Positions 4,937 to 23,203 of a stretch of 47,216 nt of DNA are shown one piece after another; the first letter of the stretch is position 1, and each line of letters begins with the position of its first letter. Location: assembly GCA_030593565.1 (NCBI GenBank), contig JAUVGW010000002.1:1-47216 (forward strand). The letters are read 5' to 3'. A model generated the notes under the pieces. The model was not told where the DNA came from. It worked only from the letters and a program-made list of their open reading frames with translations, and made no database searches. This stretch comes from Phycisphaerae bacterium. Its GTDB lineage: Bacteria; Planctomycetota; Phycisphaerae; UBA1845; UTPLA1. The position numbers and the translations under genes are program-made.

Positions 4937-5617
4937 AACTCACACCACCTGCCTTGCCGCCATTCACGGCACCGGATCACCCCTCAGCCACCTCGGCGGC
5001 AGGATGAACCGCCATCCTTCCAGCGGACGAACGTCATTATACCCTGCATTGCACACGACCGATTCCTTCACCAATCGCGCCAGTCAACCGTTGCCGCCCT
5101 CAATCCCCAGCGAGCCGGGCCGTCCCCGGCCCGGTCCCCGCCCCCCGATCCCCTTTAACTGCGACCGAAGTCCGCGCTCTCGAATCCTATCGCCAGCCAG
5201 ACAATACCGCCTGACGTATTTCGCGAGAACACCCGATAACGGATGGCCTGTGCCCAGTAGCGTGTGGCCACCGTTCACCCAATGTTCACCGCACGATGTC
5301 GACCCAAAACTGGCTCAACGCGCATAACCATCACATTGACAGCGATTTAGACGCGTCGGCTTCCACTCGCCACTGCCTCACTTCAACCACCTACTCCATA
5401 CAACACAATCCCTACAACCCCATCCTGGAAACCACCGTCCAGGAATCAGGCCCCCCGCCATCGCCCAAAGCCCGCCGACATTGAGCGGTGGTTCCTCGGA
5501 CACCACCGGCACGAAGCGTGCCCCTGAACAGGCTGACCGCGGCACCGAGCCACGCAGGACCGAAACCTCGGCTGCCGCATCCCGACTGCAACCGACAGGA
5601 TCCACGGAGTGTGCCAC
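4937..5617. other. gene-poor region upstream of the pgpH operon
   Basis: No convincing gene is seen in these 680 bases; the ORFs here are low-complexity Pro/Arg/Ser reads. The region holds the possible -10 box at 5036-5041 and one perfect hairpin at 5115-5134 (CCGGGCCG / CGGCCCGG, 4-nt loop) without a T-run. Confidence 0.6.
5036..5041 (-). promoter_or_regulatory. possible -10 element for the pgpH-ybeY operon
   Basis: The minus strand reads GGGTATAATGAC, a perfect TATAAT about 100 nt upstream of the pgpH-like start. No good -35 hexamer is seen at 16-18 nt, so this is a weak promoter call based on the -10 box and position. Confidence 0.35.
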
Positions 5618-6038: not shown

Positions 6039-6827
6039 ATGAAGATCATCACCCTCACGACCGACTTCGGTCAAGCGGACCACTACATCGCCTGCATGAA
6101 GGGCATCATCTTCCAACTTGCGCCCGCAGCCAAGATCATCGACGTCACGCACATGCTCCAACCTCACGATGTCGTCCATGCCGCCTTCGTCCTTCGCCAG
6201 ATCTTCGACCACTTCCCGGAGGGCTCCATCCATATTGCCGTCGTCGACCCCGGCGTCGGCACGGCCCGACGGTTGCTCGCCATTTCCTATGAAGGCCAAC
6301 TCATTCTCGCACCGGACAACGGACTCGTCACACTCGTCCACCGGGACTTCGAGATGGAGGAACTCCGGGCCATCGAGAACACGCGCCTCTTCCGACCCGA
6401 AATCAGCACCACCTTCCATGGACGAGACATCCTTGCCCCGGTGGCCGGTCACCTCGCACAGGGCATGGCCATTGAAAACGTCGGCCCGACCGTCGATCAA
6501 CTCGAAATCCTCAACCTCGACGAACCGACGGCAACACCGGCCGGCGGTATCGAAGGCCAGGTCCTCTACGTCGACCGCTTTGGCAACCTCATCTCGAACA
6601 TCAGCTTAGCGGACATCGATGCCGTCGCGGGCGATGCCATCGACAACCTCAGCGTGCATGTCGGGCCGCTCCGGGTCGGCCAGCTTCACAACACCTACGC
6701 CGACATGCCCCCCGGCGAAATCGTCGCCATCATCGGCTCCACAGGCATGTTGGAAATCGCCATCAACCAGGGCAACGCCGCCGAACAACTCCGAGCCGCA
6801 CCAGGCACCGTCATCGTCGTTCGCTGA
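6039..6827 (+). CDS. SAM hydrolase (adenosine-forming), DUF62 family
   Basis: This 262-residue protein belongs to the DUF62/SAM hydroxide adenosyltransferase family, which hydrolyses S-adenosyl-L-methionine to adenosine and methionine and is related to fluorinases and chlorinases. The start at ATG 6039 (MKIITLTTDFG) is chosen because homologues begin with this TTDFG strand; the preceding 35 residues of the ORF come from a dispersed repeat. Motifs include TTDFGQADHYIACMKG, VDPGVGTARR, APDNGL, FHGRDILAPVAGHLA and the C-terminal VDRFGNLISNI / IGSTGMLEIAINQGNA. Length is normal. No halogenase-type loop is apparent. The TGA stop lies inside the first unit of repeat array 1 (TGAGCC). It is the only metabolic gene in this part of the window. 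Confidence 0.9.
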   Translation: MKIITLTTDFGQADHYIACMKGIIFQLAPAAKIIDVTHMLQPHDVVHAAFVLRQIFDHFPEGSIHIAVVDPGVGTARRLLAISYEGQLILAPDNGLVTLVHRDFEMEELRAIENTRLFRPEISTTFHGRDILAPVAGHLAQGMAIENVGPTVDQLEILNLDEPTATPAGGIEGQVLYVDRFGNLISNISLADIDAVAGDAIDNLSVHVGPLRVGQLHNTYADMPPGEIVAIIGSTGMLEIAINQGNAAEQLRAAPGTVIVVR

Positions 6828-7037
6828 GCCGTGTTCTGTGAGCACGACGCACCAAACCGAGCCGTGTTCTGTGAACACGGTGCACCAAACCGAGCCGTGT
6901 TCTGTGAACACGGTGCACCAAACCGAGCCGTGTTCTGTGAACACGACGCACCAAACCGAGCCGTGTTCTGTGAACACGGTGCACCAAACCGAGCCGTGTT
7001 CTGTGAACGCGGTGCACCGCCTTCACAGAAGGCGGCT
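6826..7037. repeat. REP-like array 1: six tandem palindromic units
   Basis: Six head-to-tail units begin at 6826, 6859, 6892, 6925, 6958 and 6991, with a 33-bp period. Each unit carries the hairpin CCGTGTTCTGTGAACACGG (8-bp arms, TGT loop) or a near copy, then a CACCAAACC-type linker. The last unit runs through the palindromic junction CGGTGCACCG into an opposite-facing hairpin CCGCCTTCACAGAAGGCGG (8-bp arms, ACA loop). The cores TTCTGTGAA and TTCACAGAA are reverse complements, so the terminal pair is a nested palindrome of BIME/REPIN type. The array fills the gap between the SAM hydrolase and the sigma factor gene. The 33-bp period equals 11 codons and produces artefactual ORFs on both strands. 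Confidence 0.9.
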
Positions 7038-7106
7038 GTAAAACAAAACCCGGCTCAAACTCGCACTTTTTTTCAACAAACTTGAAAGAACCGCCCGGAA
7101 TGCGGA
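7038..7106 (+). promoter_or_regulatory. conserved leader of the sigma factor / kinase operon (copy 1)
   Basis: The sequence from the array end to the sigma gene resembles 10820-10890 upstream of the LuxR-type gene. Shared blocks, in order, are AACCCGGCTC, a T-rich TTTTTCAA, and TGAAAGAACCGCCC followed by a GCGG. Conservation of the TGAAAGAACC block at a similar distance from two regulatory genes suggests a shared promoter or operator, possibly for an ECF factor. The similarity is visible by eye; the function is inference. Confidence 0.55.
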
Positions 7107-7123
7107 AACATTACAATAGAGCC

Positions 7124-7744
7124 ATGCCGACCAGAACGAGCACAACCCTGCTGAACGGACTCCTCGATCCCCGTGACGACCGAGCGTGGCAGCGATTCTA
7201 CTCCCGTTACACACCAATGCTGCTGTCCTACGCCAAACGCGTCGGCCTCTCCGACGCCGATGCACAGGAGGTCGTCTCGAAAACACTGGCCACGTTCGTC
7301 CGGAAATATGCCGCCGGCCGATACGACCGCCAAAAAGGACGACTCAAGTCCTGGCTCGGCGGCATCATTCATAAGAAGATTCTCAGGCAGCGAGCCCGCC
7401 GCCCCATGGCGTCACTCGACGCAGCGCAGGGCGACGGCCGCCCCCATCTGCCCGAGCCCGCCGCGCCGGACGGCACAGACGAGGCCTTCGAACGTGAGTG
7501 GCAACTCGATATCCTCAACCAAGCCCTCATCATCCTGCGCCGAGACATCGATCCCAACACCTATCAGGCCTTCGACCTCTATGCCCTCAAGGACTGGCCC
7601 GTCAAGAAGGTCGCTGCGTTCCTCGGCATGACGCCCAACGCCGTCTACATCAGCAAGAGCCGAACGCTCGAAAAGCTTCGCGAACTCACCCAACGCCTCA
7701 TCGACGAGGAGGACGAACCGCGCCGTGCGATGCCTGAACAATGA
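7124..7744 (+). CDS. ECF-type RNA polymerase sigma factor, kinase-operon type
   Basis: A 206-residue sigma-70-family protein from ATG 7124 (MPTRTSTTLL); the upstream TTG proposed by the ORF track falls in the conserved leader. Region 2 is recognisable as WQRFYSRYTPMLLSYAKRVGLSDADAQEVV followed by KSWLGGIIHKKI. Region 4 is YQAFDLYALKDWPVKKVAAFLGMTPNAVYISKSRTLEKLREL, a helix-turn-helix that would contact the -35 element. No region 3 and no long N-terminal region are present, as expected for ECF factors. It overlaps the downstream zinc-finger gene by 20 nt and precedes a membrane Ser/Thr kinase. Planctomycetes commonly pair ECF factors with such kinases, so regulation by phosphorylation or by the zinc-finger protein is plausible. 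Control by the shared leader sequence is possible. Confidence 0.88.
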   Translation: MPTRTSTTLLNGLLDPRDDRAWQRFYSRYTPMLLSYAKRVGLSDADAQEVVSKTLATFVRKYAAGRYDRQKGRLKSWLGGIIHKKILRQRARRPMASLDAAQGDGRPHLPEPAAPDGTDEAFEREWQLDILNQALIILRRDIDPNTYQAFDLYALKDWPVKKVAAFLGMTPNAVYISKSRTLEKLRELTQRLIDEEDEPRRAMPEQ

Positions 7745-7976
7745 ACAACTCGAACGCCTGGCCGCCGCGCCGGACGACACCGCCAACACGAGCCCGCTCG
7801 CCCACACCCGCGGCTGCGAAGCTTGTCGACGGAAGCTCGAGCGCGTCCGAACCGACGCGACCCTCGTCGCAGACATCCGCGAACTCCGCGAGCGCCGTGC
7901 GAAGGTCAAGCCCATCCAGGACGAAATGACCGACACCGACGGCAGAATTGTCGCGCCGCCCCAACATCCGGTATGA
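7725..7976 (+). CDS. small zinc-finger protein, putative anti-sigma or adaptor
   Basis: An 83-residue ORF starts at GTG 7725 inside the end of the sigma gene, with GAGGAGG about 12 nt upstream. It reads LNNEQLERLAAAP..., a pattern common at the start of anti-sigma zinc-finger proteins, then LAHTRGCEACRRKLERV, an H-x3-C-x2-C zinc motif. The C-terminal half is charged and probably helical, and there is no transmembrane segment. Translational coupling to the sigma factor and the motif point to a ZAS-like partner that may also link to the kinase encoded next. The low complexity of the tail leaves the exact function open. Confidence 0.65.
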   Translation: MRCLNNEQLERLAAAPDDTANTSPLAHTRGCEACRRKLERVRTDATLVADIRELRERRAKVKPIQDEMTDTDGRIVAPPQHPV

Positions 7977-8097
7977 TTGCGCAGCAAATCGGATGCGTGG
8001 GTGCCCCGCCCTTTGCGCAGCAAAGGGTGGGAATCCCTAGTGCGAAAATGAAAATCCCTTCTCGCACCTTCCTTGGAGCCTGGAAAGAATCGGGAAC
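7977..8097. repeat. short intergenic region with a CCCTTTGC hairpin
   Basis: The 121-nt gap between the zinc-finger gene and the kinase contains a perfect hairpin at 8009-8027 (CCCTTTGC, GCA loop, GCAAAGGG) within a GGGTGCCCCGCCC context typical of a dispersed element. Just before the kinase ATG the sequence GGAAAGAATCGGGAAC is present, which supplies a weak ribosome-binding site and loosely recalls the GAAAGAACCG block of the upstream leader. Confidence 0.45.
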
Positions 8098-9801
8098 ATG
8101 GCAAAAGCCGACAAACCGCCCCCCGCAGACGCCACCCAGACCATCGGCCTCCCCACGCGCCCCCAACGACCGACCGACCCGGTCCCGCACCTGTCAGATT
8201 ATCGCTTCATCAAGGTCATCGGCCGCGGCGCATTCGGCACTGTCTGGCTAGCGGAGGAGCCGGTAGCCGGCGTCTTCCGAGCCATCAAAGTCCTGCACAC
8301 GCACGGCGCCGCGCGAATTGAACGAGAACTCGCCGGCATCCACGCCTACCAGGCCCAGGCGAAGGACCACCCGTACCTCGTCCGCATCCTGACGACCGGC
8401 CTATGCACACTGGACCTAGCGGCCGACGCCCCTGTCGGCCGAGATGGTGCGACCAGCCCCGCTCCACATTCCACACAAGCTGTCTACTACGTCATGGAGA
8501 TCGCCGACCACGCCGCCGGCGCGCAGCCACACCATCCCACCACCTACGAACCCATGACGCTCGCCACGCTCATCCGGCAAAAGGACCGCCTGCCTACCGG
8601 CGGCGTCATCGACCACGCATCGACCCTACTCGACGCCATCGACCACCTGCACAGAGCAGGCCTCCAACACCGCGACATCAAGCCGACCAACTGCCTGTTC
8701 ATCGGCGGCCTATTAAAACTCGCCGACATGGGCCTCGCCGCCTCCGACACGACGACCGAATCCATTGGCACCCCGGCCTACATGCCGCCGACGACCGACA
8801 AACCCACCGAGGCCGACCCTGCCCGCACGATCGGCCCGCAACCCGACGACCTCTACGCACTCGGCAAGGTCATGTACGTCATGACCACCGGCCAGGGGGC
8901 CGCCGACTTCCCCGACTGGCCCGCCGACCTGGACCCCACCGCCGACCCCCACCTCCCCGCCCTCCGCGAACTCATCAACGACCTCTGTCACCCGCAGGCC
9001 GAGAAACGCCTGACCAGCATCCGCGAGTTACGGCACAGACTGGCAACGTTCACTCCATTCGGCCCAAGCCCCAAAACATCTCGCCGCCGCGTGGCGTTAT
9101 TGGTCGGCCTCGTCGCCGCTGTCAGTTTCTACGCAGGGGCCTGGACGGCTACGCGGTGGCTCGAGCCGGAGGACCCGATGAGCCGGACATACGGCGTGCC
9201 ACCTTACAACGGTACGGATTATTCCGAGCACCTGGAGTGGGAACGACTCACCTACAGCTTGGGGCGCAGCCACCGACCAGGGATCACTTACACACTTCCC
9301 TGCGGCGGTACCTTCGTCACCTTCTGGGACATCCAGACCCGGCTGGAGGAGGGCCGCTTAGAAGTGAGCGGCGCTTTTCAAATCTACCAGGAGCACAGCC
9401 CCGCTCAGCGCGACATCACGAACCCGCGCGGGATCATCTGCCAGGTCTGCTTGTGTGTCGGGGATGAATTGCGATTCCTGTATCACGCGCAGCCAGGACC
9501 AAAGCCGGGCACATACCACGATTTCGGTCGTCGGGGGATGACCGGTATCTCGCTCAGTGAGCTCGCGTTCACGGAGGACGAACCGCTTACTGTCTATCTG
9601 GCTGTGTCGTCGTGCTATACACCGAGTAGCGCAGCAGAGGAATACAAGATACCCGCCAAACGAGTTGCACTACTCAAGAATGCACAGGTGATCGCCAGCG
9701 TGAGCCGGTTGCGTGCCGAGGAAGCTGCTCAGTCAGTGGCCGAGCCATCCCACGCAGCAATACCAGACAAAAACGAGTCGAAACCGCCCGGCAATGACTG
9801 A
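8098..9801 (+). CDS. membrane-anchored Ser/Thr protein kinase with extracytoplasmic domain
   Basis: This 567-residue protein has a Hanks-type kinase domain at about residues 35-315. Visible motifs are VIGRGAFGTVWLAEE (P-loop), FRAIKVLH (catalytic Lys), ERELAGI (Glu), HRDIKPTN (catalytic loop) and KLADMG (DMG in place of DFG). The APE region is divergent (GTPAYMPPT). A single membrane helix (ALLVGLVAAVSFYAGAW, about 339-355) leads to a roughly 210-residue C-terminal extracytoplasmic region I do not recognise. Inside the N-lobe, LDLAADAPVGRDGA is encoded by a dispersed palindromic repeat also found near 23.1 kb, so the loop has been lengthened by repeat insertion. The gene ends the sigma / zinc-finger / kinase operon and its TGA lies within REP-like array 2. 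It probably signals envelope state to the sigma factor, by context. Confidence 0.88.
   Translation: MAKADKPPPADATQTIGLPTRPQRPTDPVPHLSDYRFIKVIGRGAFGTVWLAEEPVAGVFRAIKVLHTHGAARIERELAGIHAYQAQAKDHPYLVRILTTGLCTLDLAADAPVGRDGATSPAPHSTQAVYYVMEIADHAAGAQPHHPTTYEPMTLATLIRQKDRLPTGGVIDHASTLLDAIDHLHRAGLQHRDIKPTNCLFIGGLLKLADMGLAASDTTTESIGTPAYMPPTTDKPTEADPARTIGPQPDDLYALGKVMYVMTTGQGAADFPDWPADLDPTADPHLPALRELINDLCHPQAEKRLTSIRELRHRLATFTPFGPSPKTSRRRVALLVGLVAAVSFYAGAWTATRWLEPEDPMSRTYGVPPYNGTDYSEHLEWERLTYSLGRSHRPGITYTLPCGGTFVTFWDIQTRLEEGRLEVSGAFQIYQEHSPAQRDITNPRGIICQVCLCVGDELRFLYHAQPGPKPGTYHDFGRRGMTGISLSELAFTEDEPLTVYLAVSSCYTPSSAAEEYKIPAKRVALLKNAQVIASVSRLRAEEAAQSVAEPSHAAIPDKNESKPPGND
8417..8444. repeat. dispersed palindromic repeat inside the kinase coding sequence
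   Basis: These 28 nt, containing GGCCGACGCCCCTGTCGGCC, are identical to 23129-23156 in the intergenic repeat cluster upstream of the glycosyltransferase genes. They translate in frame in the kinase, adding a loop before the YYVMEI strand. Confidence 0.75.
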
Positions 9802-10100
9802 GCCGTGTTCTGTGAACACGAAACATCGCTTTCATAGAAAGCGGCTCGGATTACTTCGCCGCACGCCGCCGAGACGTGTTCTGTGAACACGATGCACCAA
9901 ACCGAGCCGTGTTCTGTGAACACGATGCACCAAACCGAGCCGTGTTCTGTGAACACGGTGCACCGCCTTCACAGAAGGCGGCTCGGATGGCGGCTCGGAT
10001 GGCGGCTCGGATACGTGGTATCGTCGCGTTTCACAAGACCGAGCCGTGTTCTGTGAACACGATGCACCGCCTTCACAGAAGGCGGCTCGGATGGCGGCTC
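9800..10100. repeat. REP-like array 2, left flank of the RAYT gene
   Basis: The array starts inside the kinase stop codon (TGAGCC). It holds a divergent hairpin pair (9800-9846), three A-type hairpin units, a complete A/B nested palindrome ending near 9982, three short GGATGGCGGCTC tandem units and a GGATACGTGGTATCGTCGCG spacer. A second A/B palindrome follows, then another GGATGGCGGCTC that abuts the RAYT stop codon at 10104. The spacer recurs in array 3. The B hairpin occurs as CCGCCTTCACAGAAGGCGG and, at the left end, as CGCTTTCATAGAAAGCG. The compensating stem changes keep pairing intact. Confidence 0.88.
9851..9870 (-). pseudogene. possible 3' scar of a second RAYT copy
   Basis: Directly after the first hairpin pair of array 2, GCGGCTCGGATTACTTCG repeats the exact junction found at the RAYT 3' end (REP tail plus the last codons and TAA). 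In the minus frame it reads RRAAK-stop versus RQRATK-stop of the intact gene, after which similarity ends. This is compatible with a deleted earlier copy, but the match is only 18 nt, 11 of them belonging to the REP. Confidence 0.3.
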
Positions 10101-10103
10101 GGA

Positions 10104-10586
10104 TTACTTCGTCGCGCGCTGGCGCTCGATGTATTCGTAGACCCGCTGGAAATACGCTTCATCCCAAACCCATTTCACACTGCCGCCGTTCGACCACCAG
10201 CGCCGCCCTTCCTCCAGAGCCCATCGCTGCCCCAGAGCTTGGCCGAGCCACACCTTAAGCCAGCGACGAACCGCATTTCCGCCGGCGTCGGCGCTGAGGA
10301 GCACATGCACGTGATCCGGCCCGCAGGCGGCGACATGATAGGTCCAACCGCCGCGCCGGCACACCTGCGGGATAACCACTTCGGCCCACAACCGTTGCTC
10401 CCGTGTGAGTTGAATCGGGGGAAACCGCATTCGGGATTGCTCGACCCGCTCCCACGATTCGATGCGCCCGAGGACCGGCTCGCCGGGCGTGTTGTGGCGC
10501 CGATCCACGGTTCCGCGCTCGTCGCCGTGCAGCCGCGTGCCGTAGGTGCCGAAGGTGATGTGATAGGCAAGAGGACGATCATTCAT
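10104..10586 (-). CDS. REP-associated tyrosine transposase (RAYT), IS200/Y1 family
   Basis: A 160-residue Y1-type HUH nuclease. The start is taken at ATG 10586 (MNDRPLAYHITFGTYG; ATG 10595 is an alternative). The longer ORF of the track merely reads through palindromic repeats. Diagnostic features are PLAYHITFGTYGTRLHGDE, CRRGGWTYHVAACGPDHVHVLL with the HVH metal motif, then WWSNGGSVKWVWDEAYFQRVYEYIERQ carrying candidate nucleophile tyrosines. This matches the RAYT subgroup of IS200-like transposases, which excise and copy single-stranded REP hairpins. It is alone on the minus strand and bracketed within a few bases by arrays of the same palindrome, the genomic signature of a RAYT with its REPs. 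No terminal IS ends or second ORF (TnpB) are seen, so it is probably a domesticated single-copy gene. Confidence 0.88.
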   Translation of the reverse strand: MNDRPLAYHITFGTYGTRLHGDERGTVDRRHNTPGEPVLGRIESWERVEQSRMRFPPIQLTREQRLWAEVVIPQVCRRGGWTYHVAACGPDHVHVLLSADAGGNAVRRWLKVWLGQALGQRWALEEGRRWWSNGGSVKWVWDEAYFQRVYEYIERQRATK

Positions 10587-10625
10587 GTCTGACATCGTAT
10601 CGTCAACGCTCAATTCCACAAGACT

Positions 10626-10819
10626 GAGCCGTGTTCTATGAAAACGGTGCACCAAACCGAGCCGTGTTCTGTGAACACGGTGCACCGCTTTCACAGAAAG
10701 CGGCTCGGATACGTGGTATCGTCGCGTTTCACAAGACTGAGCCGTGTTCTGTGAACACGGTGCAACAAACCGAGCCGTGTTCTGTGAACACGGTGCACCG
10801 CCTTCACAGAAGGCGGCTC
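10626..10819. repeat. REP-like array 3, right flank of the RAYT gene
   Basis: The array begins with CTGAGCC upstream of the RAYT 5' end and holds four A-type hairpin units and two B-type hairpins (CCGCTTTCACAGAAAGCGG and CCGCCTTCACAGAAGGCGG). A/B pairs again form nested palindromes joined by CGGTGCACCG. The first unit is degenerate (TTCTATGAAAAC). The spacer GGATACGTGGTATCGTCGCG plus TTTCACAAGACTGAGCC is shared with array 2 and resembles the RAYT 5' flank (ATCGTC ... CCACAAGACTGAGCC). Confidence 0.88.
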
Positions 10820-10890
10820 TGGAAAAAGAAACCCGGCTCGGATTCGTGCCTATTTTTCAAAACACCTGAAAGAACCGCCCCACTCGCGGG
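10820..10890 (+). promoter_or_regulatory. conserved leader of the LuxR-type gene (copy 2)
   Basis: The sequence shares ordered blocks with 7038-7106: AACCCGGCTC, TTTTTCAA, CTGAAAGAACCGCCC and a downstream GCGGGAA. In both loci it directly follows the terminal B-type hairpin of a REP-like array and precedes a regulatory gene. It may be a promoter region duplicated together with the array. Confidence 0.55.
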
Positions 10891-23102: not shown

Positions 23103-23203
23103 GACGTAGCGGCCGACGCCCCTGTACGTAGCGGCCGACGCCCCTGTCGGCCGAGAACGCCAATCACCTCCTATGTCCGACACGGGGGGCGGACGCTACA
23201 GTT
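23103..23203. repeat. dispersed palindromic repeats in the divergent glycan-gene promoter region
   Basis: Two tandem copies of GTAGCGGCCGACGCCCCTGT (23106-23125 and 23128-23147) occur, the second extending through CGGCCGAGA to match the kinase-internal repeat exactly for 28 nt (23129-23156). At 23170-23203 a variant of the 18.4-18.9 kb repeat (CACGGGGGGCGGACGCTAC) follows in the opposite sense. The remaining bases to 23368 hold no clear gene or promoter. Confidence 0.7.

Follow-up and report, generated by a model that had tools for sequence, protein, structure and literature searches.

The DNA stretch analyzed here, a contig of 47,216 nt (C143; hereafter the window, to which all position numbers refer) from a bacterium of the class Phycisphaerae, contains a transposase gene of the HUH/Y1 type lying among arrays of short hairpins. 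We designate the gene RAYT1, for REP-associated tyrosine transposase, and its hairpins REP1, for repetitive extragenic palindrome. The original prediction, made from the sequence alone, described an HUH/Y1 gene with an HVH motif and a C-terminal Tyr next to three arrays of nested near-palindromes of about 48 bp, and this layout was recovered: the gene is separated by 14 bp from array 2 and by 30 bp from array 3, and the three arrays hold a total of 15 A and 6 B hairpins of 23 nt each, from which six REPIN units are formed. A REPIN consists of two REPs in inverted order with their feet outward, spans 48 bp, folds into a larger hairpin, and is found dispersed in the genome. The features are as follows:

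10104..10595, minus strand: RAYT1, a 163-aa HUH/Y1 transposase with H95-V-H97 and Y155; stop codon at 10104-10106
6826..7038, plus strand: REP array 1, a head-to-tail series of six A hairpins (33 bp) and a single B after it
9800..10090, plus strand: REP array 2, five A and three B hairpins, ending 14 bp from the RAYT1 stop codon
10626..10820, plus strand: REP array 3, with 4 A and 2 B, located upstream of both RAYT1 and a LuxR-type gene
6991..7038: REPIN unit (A + inverted B)
9800..9847: REPIN unit (A + inverted B) with degenerate center
9937..9984: REPIN unit (A + inverted B), z of -7.0 for folding as single-stranded DNA
10041..10088: REPIN unit (A + inverted B)
10659..10706: REPIN unit (A + inverted B) with CCGCT/AGCGG arms
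10772..10819: REPIN unit (A + inverted B)

Anatomy of the hairpins and of the RAYT1 protein

The A hairpin reads GAG-CCGTGTTC-TGT-GAACACGG-TG, and the B hairpin is the reverse complement of GAG-CCGCCTTC-TGT-GAAGGCGG-TG, with CCGCT/AGCGG as variant arms; the two meet at CGGTGCACCG. In general terms, REP1 is composed of a 5'-CNGAG foot, which extends to CNGAGCC, and of an adjoining 8-bp hairpin whose arms covary and whose core is TTCTGTGAA. The CNGAG foot was present in 78 of 78 distinct REP1 contexts, in place of the GTAG/GTGG tetranucleotide that characterizes class 2. As single-stranded DNA, the 48-bp A/B unit folds at -22.6 kcal/mol, compared with -8.5 +/- 2.0 for shuffled sequences (z -7.0). 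That the arms differ between copies and stay paired, as had been proposed, was borne out by a covariation analysis of 13 distinct hairpins, in which 95.2% of the cells were paired (82.7% in shuffles), 13 cells were changed on both sides (3.7 in shuffles), and the covariation score was 0.34 against 0.10, a value reached by none of 500 shuffles; since covariation exceeds that of the shuffles, the hairpin structure has been kept while the arms changed.

Array 1 starts within the TGA stop codon (6825-6827) of a SAM-hydroxide adenosyltransferase (SAM-HAT) gene and array 2 within that of a kinase gene (9799-9801), both stops being part of a CTGAGCC foot. Head-to-tail copies, a feature that the original prediction had singled out, occur in the window at 33 bp, in one copy of a mobile element described below (MITE2, L066; 34-35 bp), and in REP2, the hairpin family of a second RAYT, on contigs C12, C128 and C290 (36 bp). 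The 33-bp arrays probably grew locally, through slippage or unequal exchange between direct repeats.

RAYT1 is a single-copy gene, with only two paralogues in its genome, at 48 and 35% identity. An alignment-based AlphaFold model of the protein reached a pLDDT (predicted local distance difference test) of 91.3, single-sequence prediction being poor (45), and its 30 best matches in the PDB were all Y1 transposases, including those of ISDra2, IS608 and IS200 and the Escherichia coli RAYT 4er8. Residues H95, H97, Trp134 and Y155 were invariant among 38 aligned sequences. In the tree of these sequences, which has no usable root given the very long branches of the class 2 outgroup, the proteins resembling RAYT1 and RAYT2 group together with 100/100 support, next to canonical class 3; this well-supported grouping suggests a Phycisphaerae-centered sister clade of class 3 TnpA_Y1.

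High-copy hairpins whose foot is CnGA were reported by Quentin et al. (2018; PMC6006769) for class 3 Y1 proteins, which are found mainly in Planctomycetes, and GTAG REPs have been described in Planctomycetes as well (PMC3733652); hence, the novelty attributed to a planctomycete RAYT-REP pairing did not hold. RAYT1 resembles class 3 in being an HUH/Y1 enzyme with extended N-terminal conservation and flanking high-copy CnGA-foot hairpins, and differs from it in its separate clade, in the extension of the foot to CNGAGCC, in the presence of REPINs inside other mobile elements, and in its motifs, which are DHVH, WWS and YIERQ(RATK) instead of the class 3 NHVH, W[TA] and YV[VI]xEQ (with x listed as [AENY]). 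The system thus agrees with class 3 in its foot, copy number and N-terminal region, and departs from it in the HUH, Trp and Tyr motifs. With the RAYT/TnpA_REP systems of E. coli, Pseudomonas and Stenotrophomonas, which use GTAG REPs arranged in REPINs or bacterial interspersed mosaic elements (BIMEs; PMC3116915, PMC3686654, PMC8266576), it shares a single-copy RAYT, species-specific cognate REPs, inverted REP pairs and several RAYT-REP pairs per genome; unlike them, it has a GAG-based foot and prominent head-to-tail arrays, which are uncommon in published families (PMC3733652).

Other repeats were observed in the window. Arrays 1 and 3 are followed by 31-bp sequences that are 87% alike (7066-7096 and 10850-10880) and lie immediately before an extracytoplasmic function (ECF) sigma gene and the LuxR gene; they may represent a promoter common to both or a segment that was duplicated. 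A 31-bp direct repeat, 87% identical (9841-9871 and 10094-10124), spans the 3' end of RAYT1 as a possible duplication remnant. The kinase gene contains, in frame, a TAG-CGGCCGACG...TGTCGGCCG palindrome (8417-8441), to which a 22-bp unit repeated in tandem at 23104-23147 is related. One REP2 hairpin is located at 5112-5134.

RAYT-REP pairs in the genome and in related planctomycetes

The genome (5.15 Mb in 461 contigs, 87% complete), assigned to Phycisphaerae on the basis of its closest named relatives, which are MAGs of Phycisphaerales and Phycisphaeraceae, was surveyed by pattern searches. The REP1 pattern GAGCCNNNTTCTGTGAANNNGGT gave 123 matches at up to 2 mismatches, compared with 1 for the reversed-pattern control, so that the palindromes are not confined to the locus. 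At up to 1 mismatch, 113 copies were counted, and none of 16 other genomes of the same family had more than 1. Exact REP1 occurred 100 times in this genome, once in each of two genomes, and not at all in the remaining 394 of the 396 other genomes of the class. REP1 is, in consequence, essentially restricted to its own genome, and it is not frequent in relatives lacking RAYT1.

Both paralogues have hairpin families of their own, in agreement with the RAYT-REP relationship initially proposed. RAYT2 (contig C17), 48% identical to RAYT1, has GAGCCGGGTCGTCCCCGACCCGGTACCGGGCGGGGGACCGCCCGGCTC or near variants on both sides, with a GTCCCC core, and its hairpin pattern is found in 84 copies genome-wide (control 0). 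RAYT3 (C146), 35% identical to RAYT1, lies beside GACCTTGGTC hairpins and has CCCCCGACCTTGGTCGGGGG hairpins, for which 104 matches were obtained (control 0), many of them inverted pairs 50 bp apart. The foot differs by family (CNGAG, GYGAG and mostly AAGAG), GAG being constant. The REP3 pairs of RAYT3 were also seen within another element with terminal inverted repeats (TIRs), whose ends are CAGTACAGCGCAA...TTGCGCTGTACTG (L147, L153, L157 and L159).

The association extends to other planctomycetes. Around 22 of their RAYT1-like loci, the density of hairpins with a CNGAG foot was 1.83/kb up to 450 bp from the gene and 0.13/kb beyond, a 14-fold difference, and at least one was present at 16 of the 22. 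For instance, the RAYT of another member of the Phycisphaeraceae (L224), 57% identical to RAYT1, adjoins CCGAGCCGGATTCTGTGAATCCGG, with the same TTCTGTGAA core and other arms. Conversely, homologues of the ECF sigma, kinase, LuxR and SAM-HAT genes of the window were found at none of 28 related RAYT loci; the proposed pairing with a regulatory operon is therefore local.

At the scale of the class, a class-3 RAYT was detected in 133 of 397 genomes. The canonical class-3 REP was present in at least 10 copies in 43 of these 133 genomes and in 26 of the 264 RAYT-negative ones (odds ratio 4.4, p 6e-8, with kinship ignored), a co-occurrence that is real but leaky. Four genomes (G109, G058, G250 and G377) carry 117-353 copies of this REP, with no class-3 RAYT found at E 1e-10; their RAYT may have been lost, be divergent, or be missing from the assembly.

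Dispersed copies within MITEs and the nature of the locus

Most dispersed REP1 copies are carried by miniature inverted-repeat transposable elements (MITEs), that is, elements with TIRs and target-site duplications and no gene. Classification of 111 REP1 hairpins assigned 18 to the window, ~61 to MITE1 (including five contig-edge or deleted copies assigned by eye: L073, L084, L095, L113 and L114), 18 to MITE2 and ~14 to other places. MITE1 measures 222-226 bp, with the 18-bp TIR CAGGGCAATCGCAAGAAT and 10-bp target duplications, and its ends were found 230 times in the genome (control 0). MITE2 has inverted ends; of the two families, only MITE1 has established target duplications. REPINs are repeatedly positioned in the middle of such elements, REP1 in MITE1 and MITE2 and REP3 pairs in further TIR elements. 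The reading implied by the original prediction, namely that genome-wide abundance reflects mobilization by the RAYT, is not supported by this census, and the treatment of all dispersed copies as REPs moved by the RAYT was discarded: with most copies outside the window inside two MITE families, copy number alone is no direct measure of RAYT activity.

In one MITE1 copy (L091), the spacer of the central REPIN is inverted relative to the flanks, as if flipped between both hairpins. A 154-bp form of MITE1 (L189-L216, e.g., G000:C1:4696-4849), with 10-bp target duplications, has a GTAG-type palindrome pair as its core; this REP-less form was considered as an empty site and rejected, its interior being different.

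We interpret the locus, with a probability of about 0.78, as a REPtron, i.e., a single-copy HUH/Y1 RAYT belonging to a Phycisphaerae-centered sister clade of class 3 TnpA_Y1 and flanked by its cognate REPs. The protein has the HUH motif and a single Tyr in a Y1 fold, the flanking palindromes are present in high copy number, and the gene is single copy, as in RAYT/TnpA_REP systems broadly defined; the reading also accommodates the observed anatomy, covariation, pairing and distribution of RAYT1 and REP1. Several points weigh against it. The Pfam domain Y1_Tnp matched RAYT1 at E 0.0033 and 18 bits, under the cut-off of 23. The ~79 of 93 REP1 hairpins outside the window (~85%) that are MITE cargo leave ~14 as possibly moved by the RAYT. 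No empty REP site was found when the REP-less forms of MITE1 were compared, and we therefore infer REP1 mobility from its distribution; likewise, we infer cleavage and transposition of REP1 by RAYT1 from sequence and from other RAYTs. Six of the 22 RAYT1-like loci had no CNGAG hairpin by the density-count rule. Lastly, the REP1 counts are approximate because of the 87% completeness of the assembly, its 461 contigs and the several copies at contig ends.

The location of so many copies in MITEs could also mean that the hairpins belong to MITEs, or are transcription terminators, and are functionally unrelated to the RAYT, their adjacency being due to chance, and the arrays do abut gene ends at 6827 and 9801, where they could terminate transcription. 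We regard this as improbable, given that RAYT1, RAYT2 and RAYT3 are each flanked by hairpins of different sequence, that GAG-foot hairpins are 14 times denser beside related RAYTs across the class than in sequence further away, that the MITE ends bordering dispersed copies are missing from the arrays of the window, and that REP1 is nearly absent from relatives. Still less probable is an autonomous insertion sequence of the IS200/IS605 type with multiplied subterminal hairpins: the fold is closest to the ISDra2 and IS608 transposases, and Gln159, four residues past Tyr155, resembles class 1, but the genome holds one copy of RAYT1 and distant paralogues rather than several near-identical copies, the hairpins are present in many copies, as inverted pairs and in tandem, and not as a single pair of ends, and no tnpB-like gene was recognized beside RAYT1 in the window. 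The least credible alternative is that the hairpins serve the host (in DNA topology, mRNA stability or protein binding) and that the RAYT is a domesticated enzyme maintaining them; a RAYT in single copy would suit it, as would arrays that border gene ends or precede regulatory genes, whereas neither location nor sequence is conserved between genera, and REPs within coding sequence and MITEs look parasitic.

Under the REPtron interpretation, RAYT1 would recognize the foot and hairpin when the strand becomes single-stranded, as in replication, and Tyr155 would attack the DNA adjoining the hairpin; the resulting 5'-phosphotyrosine and 3'-OH ends would let REP or REPIN copies join elsewhere at low frequency. 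In other RAYTs, the dinucleotide that is cleaved is believed to be set by the last two bases of the foot, with C|T corresponding to A3G4 of GTAG (PMC8266576); by analogy, C|T cleavage is predicted for RAYT1, because its foot also ends in AG. C|T occurs at the outer edges of the arrays (GC|TGAGCC at 6824, AC|TGAGCC at 9798, and, following B, GGC|TCGG), and a TGA of this kind forms the exact end of two host genes, a suggestive fit to the prediction and not a test of it. REPINs probably entered MITEs and were then amplified by a different, TIR-type transposase, since most dispersed copies lie inside two TIR-bearing families.

RAYTs in frame within host genes

The most surprising result of following the family was the presence, in dozens of relatives, of class-3 RAYTs in frame within long coding sequences, most of those identified being genes for alanyl- and valyl-tRNA synthetase and PurH. 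Among the matches listed, 34 class-3 RAYTs lie within open frames of at least 844 aa (manual row count). From reading the best-match loci and a Pfam scan of 8 open reading frames (ORFs), Y1_Tnp was found to interrupt in frame the genes for alanyl-tRNA synthetase (AlaRS, at several sites), valyl-tRNA synthetase (ValRS), PurH, a DUF1156 protein and a class I tRNA synthetase:

L168, L169, L177: class-3 RAYT in AlaRS
L258, L259: class-3 RAYT in AlaRS, second site
L256: class-3 RAYT in AlaRS near the C-terminus; the ORF holds two RAYTs
L172, L173, L187: class-3 RAYT in PurH
L265, L271, L272, L275, L276, L277: class-3 RAYT in ValRS
L283, G000:C438 ~9130-9330: Y1_Tnp in a class I (I/L/M/V) tRNA synthetase of the genome studied here, open frame of 1385 aa

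The HUH motif and C-terminal Tyr are retained in the AlaRS, ValRS and PurH cases read, and the linker peptides PSRDRKGA and PLPYGRGS are, by eye, translated REPs. A literature search for RAYTs located within tRNA synthetase genes yielded no relevant record, most subscription papers being outside reach.

Palindromic repeats tolerated in frame in coding genes are known from the Rickettsia palindromic elements. The present elements are alike in this respect; unlike the Rickettsia ones, relatives of our bacterium hold whole RAYT genes together with REPs in frame, and RAYT1 of the window is itself not in frame within a host gene. Apart from these RAYTs, REP1 hairpins were noted, by eye, apparently in frame in coding sequence, in an NADH dehydrogenase subunit L-like gene (L072, G000:C102:27287-27417) and in two kinase-like genes (L096 on C301 and L116 on C421).

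Tentatively, the class-3 RAYTs of Phycisphaerae might be viewed as mobile REPtrons that persist by occupying permissive loops of essential genes (AlaRS at several sites, ValRS, PurH), joined in frame through REP linkers and protected from loss because an imprecise deletion would kill the host; the locus of the window would then be a free-standing sister form, whose REPs spread further via MITEs. MITEs carrying REPINs can drive REP copy number, which matters for models that read RAYT activity from REP abundance. The three independent RAYT-REP pairs of this genome, with differing feet and cores, offer a natural test of hairpin choice outside proteobacteria, and RAYTs in frame in tRNA synthetase genes suggest a persistence route for a transposase that does not multiply.

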